Assembly (NCBI GenBank): GCA_937884605.1
Contig: CALGDM010000018.1
Coordinates: forward strand, 62,001 to 126,000
Origin: an uncultured Spiribacter sp.
GTDB taxonomy: Bacteria > Pseudomonadota > Gammaproteobacteria > Nitrococcales > Nitrococcaceae
Direction: 5' to 3'
DNA length: 64,000 bases
Shown here: piece by piece, positions 44,000-46,842 of the stretch
How the letters are laid out: every line of letters starts with the position of its first letter
Numbering within the stretch: the first letter of the stretch is position 1
Notes under the pieces: model-generated
Databases searched by the model: none
Told to the model about the DNA's origin: nothing
Seen by the model: only the letters and a program-made list of their open reading frames with translations
Translations under genes and position numbers: made by a program

Positions 44000-44223
44000 C
44001 CGACCCGCAACACTCCGGCGACCGCCCTGCCCGCGTCTCGCTGTGGCAGGCCATCAAGAGCACGGCCGCCGCAGCCTTCGGCGTGCAGACCGAGTCGGCG
44101 CGCCAGCGCGATTTTACCCATGGCAATCCGGCACATTTCATCATTGCCGGACTGATCTTTACCGCGGTCTTTGTCGTGGTGCTGGTGGTGATCGTCAACC
44201 TGGTGCTGAGTCAGGCCGGCTAG
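43996..44223 (+). CDS. DUF2970 single-pass membrane protein
   Basis: 75-aa small protein: a cytoplasmic N-terminal part with SLWQAIKSTAAAAFGVQTESARQRDF-type DUF2970 sequence (split at about residues 15-41) and one C-terminal membrane helix. Function unknown. ATGA overlap with the MFS gene; the last 29 bases overlap the convergent symporter gene. Confidence 0.85.
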   Translation: MTDPQHSGDRPARVSLWQAIKSTAAAAFGVQTESARQRDFTHGNPAHFIIAGLIFTAVFVVVLVVIVNLVLSQAG

Positions 44224-45589
44224 CCCGCCCCCGGCCCAGCGCCATGACCGCGACCACCAGGGCCGAGGCGCCGAGCGCGCCCAGAAACGGCCCCAGCGTG
44301 GGGATGCTGTCGGGAAAACTTGCCACCTGGAGCCCGCCGACGAGATGGCCAGTGGCAATGGTGCCCGGGACTACCGCGCCGATCAGCCCGGCCACGGCGC
44401 CCAGGATCGCGGCGCGGGGCGAGACCCGGTCCGAGAGCCCGCTCAACAGCGGGATCACCGCGGTGGCACAGAGCAGATCGGCAATCAGAAACAGCCGCAG
44501 CACCGAGATCTGCTGCCAGGCGATCAGCACCACCGGGATCATCAACAGCGCCGACAGCCATCGGGCCCCGCGACGCTGCAGCCGGCCCGTTTCGGTAACC
44601 CCCAGGGACACCAGCGCGTTCTGCAGCGTGTCGACGGATGAGGCCACCAGGGTAATCCCCAGTACCAGCGCCGGCAGTGTCAGCCAGGTCGGGGCGTCGG
44701 CGATGAGCGCAAACAGCGGGATCGGCGGTGTGCCCAGGGGCAGTCCGCGGCTGGCGGCGAGCAGACCCGCCCCGCCCAGCACGGCCACCACGGCGATGGT
44801 GGACAGGCCTCCGATGACCGCGCCGCGCCGCAGGGCGCCGTCGTCCCGGGCCGCCCACACCCGTTGCCAGTAGCCCTGGTGGAAAAGGTTGGCGGCGGTG
44901 ACGGCCATGATCAGCGTCAGCGCCACACCCAGGGCATCGCCAGGGGCCGGAGCGGGCAGGCTGCCGCCGGCGTTGGCCGGGCGCTCGGGCGCCAGACCCA
45001 ATACCGCCGCCGCCACGATCCCGATCAGCGCCACCAGCAACCCGGCCTGCCAGCGGTCGGTGACAAGGCTTGCGCGCAGCCCTCCGGCCGCCGTGTAGAT
45101 CACCGTGGCGATGGCCACCGCGGCGATGGCATAGCGGCCGTCGGCATCCGAGAGCAGGGCGGTGATGGCGCCCACGGCGGTCAGCTCGGCGGCCAGAAAG
45201 CAGAGCATGTAGAGCACCGACAGGGCCGCTACCCAGGCGCGAAAGCCAGTGCCGAAACGGCCAGCGGTAAACTCGGTCAGGCTGCGGCCGGCGGGCAGCC
45301 GGCGGCGGATGGCCGGCCCGACCAGGCCCAGGATGATAAAGGGCAGTGCCGAGCCGATGGCATAACCGGCCACCGCCACTGGCCCAACGAAGGCGCCGAT
45401 TTCGGGGGGTGCGAACAGAATCCAGGCGCCCATTCCCGAGGCCAGAAACGACAGCCCGAGGGCGGTGCCGGTCTGGCTGCGCCGGGCGGTCAGGTAGTCG
45501 TCGAGACTGTCGCTGTGCCGGGCCCGGAGCCCCAGCAGGACAAATGCGATGAGGGCAGCGATAACCGCCGCGAGCGGGATGGTGAGCAT
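44195..45589 (-). CDS. Sodium/solute symporter family transporter, TPP-riboswitch controlled
   Basis: 464-aa SSS-family protein with about 13 transmembrane helices. N-terminal LDDYLTARRSQTGTALGLSFLASGMGAW (about 29-56) matches the sodium-binding region, followed by TEFTAGRFG and VTAANLFHQGYWQRVWAA. Family members move amino acids, pantothenate, nucleosides and other solutes with Na+. Its translation start lies directly against a TPP aptamer, so the substrate is probably thiamine, a thiamine precursor or a breakdown product. Thiamine-regulated SSS transporters have been proposed before from comparative genomics (ThiV). No thi genes are visible here. Confidence 0.9.
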   Translation of the reverse strand: MLTIPLAAVIAALIAFVLLGLRARHSDSLDDYLTARRSQTGTALGLSFLASGMGAWILFAPPEIGAFVGPVAVAGYAIGSALPFIILGLVGPAIRRRLPAGRSLTEFTAGRFGTGFRAWVAALSVLYMLCFLAAELTAVGAITALLSDADGRYAIAAVAIATVIYTAAGGLRASLVTDRWQAGLLVALIGIVAAAVLGLAPERPANAGGSLPAPAPGDALGVALTLIMAVTAANLFHQGYWQRVWAARDDGALRRGAVIGGLSTIAVVAVLGGAGLLAASRGLPLGTPPIPLFALIADAPTWLTLPALVLGITLVASSVDTLQNALVSLGVTETGRLQRRGARWLSALLMIPVVLIAWQQISVLRLFLIADLLCATAVIPLLSGLSDRVSPRAAILGAVAGLIGAVVPGTIATGHLVGGLQVASFPDSIPTLGPFLGALGASALVVAVMALGRGRASRPDSAPG

Positions 45590-45676
45590 GTCGCGCTTCC
45601 TCCGCCGGTATGATCCGGTTCAGGTTCCAGGGTCTGCGCGATGGCGCACTCTCAGTCCGAAGACTCCCCTGGCGAC
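45590..45676 (-). ncRNA. TPP riboswitch (THI element) with the ribosome-binding site inside the aptamer
   Basis: Read on the minus strand, the leader shows the TPP aptamer landmarks in order: CAGGGGAGTC, CTGAGA (45655-45650), GACCC, GGAACCTGAACCGGATCA (around 45628-45611) and ACCGGCGGAGGAA. P1 can form from GTCGC (45676-45672) with GCGAC (45594-45590), the latter directly before the symporter ATG. The GGAGG SD (45603-45599) lies in the conserved core with nine bases to ATG. Ligand binding should therefore hide the SD without a separate expression platform. Confidence 0.93.
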
Positions 45677-45701
45677 GTGGGTTCAGATTGTTGAGCGCCA
45701 G

Positions 45702-45730
45702 AGTATGCCGACGGGCCGGTGGCCGTGCAA
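45702..45730 (-). promoter_or_regulatory. Candidate promoter for the TPP-controlled symporter
   Basis: On the minus strand TTGCAC (45730-45725), a 17-bp spacer and CATACT (45707-45702) lie just upstream of the riboswitch, placing the start site about 20 bases before P1. The -10 matches 4/6 and the -35 3/6. Confidence 0.45.
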
Positions 45731-45780: not shown

Positions 45781-46842
45781 ATGGGCGGGCGTTGGCGATG
45801 GCTAGCCGGGGCGTTGGCTCTGGCCCTGACAGGTCTGGCGGCGGGCATGCCGGTGTTCAATGGCTGGCAGGCCGAGCAGACCTGGCAGAGCCGTGTCGAG
45901 CAGTGGGATCGGCGGCTGGCCGACGGGATCGGTGCCGGCGCGACGGCCCGGATTGTCGATTACCAGCGCGGCCTCTACCGCGCATCGGTGCGGACCGAAC
46001 TGGTGCTGCCGGCCTCGACCCTGACGCCGGCAATGCGCGAGCATCTTGGCCTGAGTGCCTCGGGGCCGGTGCGCTGGGTGCTTGAGCAGACCCTGCAACA
46101 CGGCTGGCGCGGCGTTGCCCTGGACGGTCATCTGCGGCCCGCGGGCGCGCTGGCGCCGGTGTTCGAGCGGCTCGGCGGCAACCCCGAGAGCATTTCGGTG
46201 CGCGGCCATCTGGGCTTTGAGACCCAGTCGCTGGCAATCCGGATCCGGCGGCTGGCGGGGGTGCCGGAGCTGTTCGAACTGGGTGGAATGCAGGCAAGCA
46301 CTGATCTGCGCCCGGTGGCCGGTGCGTCCGGGGCAGGCGTCTGGAGCGGTCAGACGCAGATCGTCATCGAGGCGCTCGCCCTGCCCGGCGCGCCGCCGCT
46401 GCAGGGCCGCGCCACCGTCGATTTCGAGCGCATCGACGCCCGGGCGCTGCTGACGCTGAGCGCGGATCAATGGCGCCCGTCGCTGGCGGCACTGGCCACC
46501 GAGTCGCCGCGGCTTGCGCTCTCCGCGTTGCGGCTAGAGACGGTGCCGGGACAGGGGCTGAGTGGTGAGGCGAGTTTGCAGATCCGCCCGGCGATGGCCG
46601 AGCGGTTGCGCGCCGGTGCCCACGGCATGGCGCTCTGGGAGGCGCTGCGTCTGGATACCGAACTGGTGATCGACCAGGCCATGGTCGAGGCCCTGCCCAA
46701 CGAGGCGCAGGCATGGCTGCAGCAGGGCCGGGCGTTCGGCTTTCTGCGCCGCCGCGATGGCGACTGGCGCCTGGCGCTGGCCGTCGATGAGGGCAGCCTG
46801 CGCATCCACGGCCAGACGCCCGCCTGGGCTCCTGGCAACTAG
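45781..46842 (+). CDS. DUF945 (YdgA-like) exported protein
   Basis: 353-aa protein with an N-terminal signal/anchor helix (about 7-28) and a beta-rich body resembling the DUF945/YdgA family (VDYQRGLYRASVRTEL early, LTLSADQWRPSLAALATESPRL later). Function unknown; probably periplasmic, inner-membrane-anchored. Divergent from the symporter. The family assignment is by overall pattern, not a sharp motif. Confidence 0.7.
   Translation: MGGRWRWLAGALALALTGLAAGMPVFNGWQAEQTWQSRVEQWDRRLADGIGAGATARIVDYQRGLYRASVRTELVLPASTLTPAMREHLGLSASGPVRWVLEQTLQHGWRGVALDGHLRPAGALAPVFERLGGNPESISVRGHLGFETQSLAIRIRRLAGVPELFELGGMQASTDLRPVAGASGAGVWSGQTQIVIEALALPGAPPLQGRATVDFERIDARALLTLSADQWRPSLAALATESPRLALSALRLETVPGQGLSGEASLQIRPAMAERLRAGAHGMALWEALRLDTELVIDQAMVEALPNEAQAWLQQGRAFGFLRRRDGDWRLALAVDEGSLRIHGQTPAWAPGN

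Follow-up and report, generated by a model that had tools for sequence, protein, structure and literature searches.

The window, a 64,000-nucleotide stretch of DNA from an uncultured Spiribacter sp., contains a sodium:solute symporter gene whose start codon directly follows a structured RNA element. Two questions are raised by this locus: how could such an element control the gene, and which compound does the transporter bring into the cell? In the preliminary description, made from the sequence, the leader was read as a TPP aptamer that holds the Shine-Dalgarno (SD) sequence of the gene. An Rfam cmscan search of the 64-kb window returned two matches, one tRNA and a TPP riboswitch (RF00059). 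The latter lies on the minus strand at 45680-45579 and scored 58.1 bits against a gathering threshold of 54.3 (E 8.5e-9), with all 105 of the 105 model positions aligned. By covariance model the element is a TPP riboswitch, as had been proposed, and a whole-genome search found it to be the only RF00059 copy in the genome. The THI-element landmarks, CTGAGA (45655-45650), AACCTGAACCGGAT and GGCGGAGGAA, had been placed correctly on the minus strand.

The minimum-energy fold recovers P1, P2, P3, P3a, P4, and P5 (the main features are collected in Table 1). The other two anatomical points of the preliminary description, an SD within the aptamer core and a P1 helix set against the AUG, were both confirmed. 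GGAGG lies nine bases 5' of the AUG, and in the fold its AGG pairs with CCU 45624-45622, forming part of P4. Folding energy was considered as evidence for an RNA element and rejected (z = -0.97); because the fold is hardly more stable than expected, the case for the aptamer is made by the covariance model and by conservation. In a 36-sequence alignment, P3 and P3a together contain seven pairs with two-sided changes (35 cells, compared to 8.3 in shuffled alignments). P1, P2, P4, and P5 are nearly invariant in the same alignment and hence neutral with respect to covariation, although the rows were chosen by their 3' motif, so that the invariance of this motif is partly a product of selection. 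No covariation was found in P1; since this helix hardly varies, it is supported by its conservation and position. Further upstream, the sequence TTGCNN-17/18-CATACT is, as judged by eye, retained at the position of the probable promoter in nearly all members of the genus; a consensus promoter scan reported nothing at 45702-45730.

Table 1. Features of the riboswitch-symporter locus (window positions)
Feature	Position	Strand	Basis or remark
ThiV/SSSP-like sodium:solute symporter gene, 464 aa, ATG start	44195..45589	-	PF00474; SSS fold
TPP riboswitch aptamer RF00059	45579..45680	-	58.1 bits, full length
P1 5' arm GUCGC	45672..45676	-	sequence, fold; invariant in nearly all relatives
P1 3' arm GCGAC, last base immediately before AUG	45590..45594	-	sequence, fold, relatives' motif
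P3 hairpin AGUCU-UC-GGACU	45654..45665	-	fold; compensatory changes
P3a hairpin UGCGC/GCGCA	45635..45648	-	fold; compensatory changes
Shine-Dalgarno GGAGG within aptamer core	45599..45603	-	sequence, fold
Start codon AUG	45589-45587	-	P1 3' arm directly abuts
Probable promoter TTGCAC (45730-45725), 17-base spacer, CATACT (45707-45702)	45702..45730	-	genus conservation

The product of the controlled gene had been assigned to the SSS family, and this assignment is borne out by both sequence and structure. The 464-residue protein matches PF00474 (E 3.6e-11), while its sole NCBIfam matches, to the general SSS family and to PutP, are far below cut-off. An AlphaFold model built from 15 relatives (pLDDT 78.8, pTM 0.82) matches SGLT2, DUR3, CHT1, and SiaT. 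Searched with the single protein, the solved structures yielded no match; searched with a profile, they yielded DUR3 and SGLT1. A signature of HMP/thiamin symporters has been described at SiaT positions Y78, D139, and F254, the last followed by H or a polar residue (PMC11452348). Two invariant features of the symporter, given in its own numbering, bear some resemblance to this signature: an F236-H237 pair, where a break is predicted between helix 216-236 and helix 238-246, and the acidic residue E135, which is Glu where the signature has Asp. The gene appears to be monocistronic, with frames on the plus strand facing its tail and a divergent gene upstream (45781-46842, plus strand). None of its immediate neighbours in the window looks like a thiamine gene, which leaves the riboswitch as the sole local link to B1. 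The thiL gene of the genome (G000:C18:61045-61980) ends ~20 bases short of the window's left boundary, which puts it ~44 kb away from the symporter.

The association of riboswitch and symporter was followed in related genomes. Eleven of the 14 genomes of the genus contain the symporter, in every case (11/11) directly behind the single TPP riboswitch of the genome. A TPP riboswitch also precedes the symporter in three further carriers of the family, and only the symporter of the order relative G024 lacks one, so that 14 of 15 close relatives have the gene behind a TPP riboswitch. A wider set was formed by the 80 nearest relatives, which come from Halomonas, Vreelandella, Billgrantia, Halopseudomonas, Marinobacter, and others. 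RF00059 scored above cut-off immediately 5' of the symporter in 59 of these, and all RF00059-positive loci carry the SD/GCGAC/start motif. The motif, GGAGG-N9-start including a GCGAC ahead of the start codon, was found at 65 of the 80 loci, and the 15 loci that lack it are all from Marinobacter. One of the 65, L156:2834-3003 of Marinobacter sp. SS5-14b, has just the 3' half of the aptamer and the SD before the symporter, apparently what is left of a riboswitch that has been lost; the other 15 Marinobacter copies have no such remnant. The layout of SD, P1, and start codon is nearly unchanged in 64 of the 80, Spiribacter, Halomonas, and Marinobacter among them. The copy in G018 departs from this pattern: its P1 differs and its core reads CGUAGGG. 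In Marinobacter pelagius, a tandem glycine riboswitch lies upstream of the symporter on the opposite strand (L176:2578-2762, minus).

To see what the transporter might supply, genes of the B1 pathway were checked one family at a time in the 14 genomes of the genus. No thiC (PF01964) was found in the genome of the window (91% complete) or in any of the 14, including seven other members at 99-100% completeness; thiC was positive in 13 of 14 control genomes. In contrast, thiG, thiE, and thiD are present in 14/14 genomes each, and thiL is over the cut-off in 13/14. The genotype of an HMP auxotroph, with thiC absent and thiG, thiE, thiD, and thiL present, was thus found, and judging by gene content the members of the genus look like HMP auxotrophs. 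With thiC absent and thiG, thiE, and thiD kept, they should make the thiazole half of the vitamin and need HMP from outside. A search of the literature on thiamine in Spiribacter found no pertinent titles. The genus is characterized as moderately halophilic (PMC5818414), and the close relatives of the window's genome, Spiribacter included, support the earlier guess that the host is a halophile.

Genus-wide loss of thiC with retention of thiG, thiE, and thiD favors HMP, the pyrimidine precursor of B1, as the likeliest substrate of the symporter, which would narrow the original proposal of "thiamine or a precursor". The situation outside the genus is different: thiC is present in 49 of 50 tested symporter carriers, and the idea that the symporter marks HMP auxotrophy there was therefore rejected. 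In most hosts the importer would, because of this, serve salvage rather than auxotrophy. These thiC-positive carriers would equally be suited by a general importer for B1 salvage, and SSSP homologues have been proposed to act on either thiamine or HMP (PMC4260697), so the same riboswitch might control a symporter for thiamine itself or for thiamine phosphates. We regard this as unlikely, since the genus keeps thiG, thiE, and thiD, genes that it would not need if it were supplied with intact thiamine, and since uptake in SAR11 is HMP-specific (PMC11452348). A tblastn search for thiG, thiE, thiD, and thiL in the flanks of the symporter in the 80 nearest relatives found none; thiG has been reported to adjoin SSSP in several Marinobacter (PMC4260697), but given this result gene neighborhood was set aside as evidence.

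Our favored reading is, with good though not complete confidence, that a direct-occlusion TPP riboswitch governs how a ThiV/SSSP-like importer is translated. The importer is probably coupled to Na+, and its substrate is most likely HMP (or a near relative of it, for instance amino-HMP). At low TPP, the P4 pairing and the short P1 helix would open often enough to let a ribosome onto GGAGG and the AUG, and the cell would produce the importer. Binding of TPP would lock P1 and the SD-holding helix, hiding the start site. Imported HMP would be phosphorylated by ThiD, ThiE would join the HMP phosphate product to the thiazole that the ThiG route provides, and ThiL would yield TPP, closing the loop. 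TPP binding, the ON/OFF direction, Na+ coupling, and the substrate are what we infer in this scheme. Direct occlusion of translation by the ligand is the likely mode of control given the anatomy: the SD is in the aptamer, P1 ends just before the AUG, and there is no room for an expression platform. It is also favored because the layout is nearly frozen across families while P3 and P3a vary with compensation. In thiC riboswitches of order relatives, the start codon mostly lies ~40-110 nt beyond the end of the aptamer model; this spacing gives the thiC leaders room for an expression platform that the symporter leader does not have.

An mRNA whose translation is blocked is commonly exposed to Rho, and the riboswitch could instead act mainly on transcription, for example if Rho terminates the transcript within the gene when this goes untranslated, or if an RNA structure extends into the coding sequence. 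A review mentions one TPP riboswitch that exerts both kinds of control, translational and Rho-dependent (PMC10907184). No terminator can lie between aptamer and AUG here, because the aptamer touches the AUG, and the two terminator-like sites found on the same strand inside the gene are within the number expected by chance. We consider mainly transcriptional control quite unlikely. SSS substrates are diverse and the only NCBIfam matches are sub-threshold, but the proposal that the symporter moves an unrelated solute, such as proline, pantothenate, or a compatible solute, and is only incidentally linked to TPP is very improbable, because the association with the riboswitch, in the genus as in the wider set, persists at differing loci.

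The combination of a riboswitch with an SSS symporter has a name in the literature, ThiV/SSSP, which the preliminary description did not mention. Under the name thiV, an SSS symporter controlled by TPP was known from an earlier genome analysis and was met again in metagenomes (PMC2211319); SSSP occurs in algae and SAR11, and thiV was named in Methylobacillus flagellatus (PMC4260697). In SAR11, ThiV is under a TPP riboswitch in cells without thiC, and HMP uptake has been measured (PMC11452348; PMC10881298). By family, fold, and TPP riboswitch, the window's gene fits the ThiV/SSSP type. As in M. flagellatus thiV, SAR11_0811, and algal SSSP, an SSS symporter stands directly behind a TPP riboswitch, and as in SAR11, the organism lacks thiC and keeps the rest of the pathway; a difference is that most relatives of the window's symporter outside the genus are found in thiC-positive hosts.

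The window's aptamer has all helices and the conserved core of the RF00059 family, and differs in that its P1 abuts the AUG. Its core reads CGGAGG, forming a full SD, whereas the thiC riboswitches of order relatives mostly have CGUAGGG. According to a 2005 paper, riboswitch base stems that overlap the start site seemed to be limited to Actinobacteria (PMC1262725). In passages of a 2024 review that also sets out a "direct occlusion" group, TPP riboswitches are discussed under strand exchange (PMC10907184). The window's element resembles both the actinobacterial overlaps and the "direct occlusion" group in that it has no separate expression platform and that the SD and the start codon lie within the aptamer or right beside it; unlike the actinobacterial riboswitches, it is gammaproteobacterial. 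What is new here is a modest extension: a TPP riboswitch that is gammaproteobacterial, has no expression platform apart from the aptamer, and overlaps the start site unusually tightly. Such overlaps in Proteobacteria may already have been noted by Rodionov in 2002. On balance, we lean toward the view that the leader represents a platform-free type of TPP riboswitch in halophilic and marine Gammaproteobacteria, in which core, SD, and start codon are fused and nearly frozen, TPP alone hides the start, and, in the genus around Spiribacter, import of the lost half of B1 is controlled.

This reading predicts that a whole hypersaline genus must obtain the pyrimidine half of B1 from other organisms, in parallel to SAR11, and it names candidates for both the importer and the sensor of the missing half. 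As a small natural switch of translation, the leader would also lend itself to tests of how far a ribosome can be controlled by an aptamer alone.

Other loci may contribute to pyrimidine supply. The genome of the window encodes an NCS1 permease (PF02133; G000:C30:24085-25410, L090) that is allantoin-permease-like and below family cut-offs. It might be a second pyrimidine importer and may carry HMP; the only TPP riboswitch of the genome is not near this locus. Three members of the genus that have neither symporter nor thiC (L017/G012, L025/G008, and L027/G004) each have their single TPP riboswitch ahead of an SDR gene of the PRK08642 type, which means that the genus has more than the symporter as a solution. 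The riboswitch-led SDR may act in pyrimidine salvage. In G012 and G004, its gene lies beside thrS-infC-rplT-pheST-like genes, and in G004 (L077:4271-6435, minus strand) it is followed, as judged by eye, by a same-strand SbtA-type transporter-like gene and a small PII-like gene.
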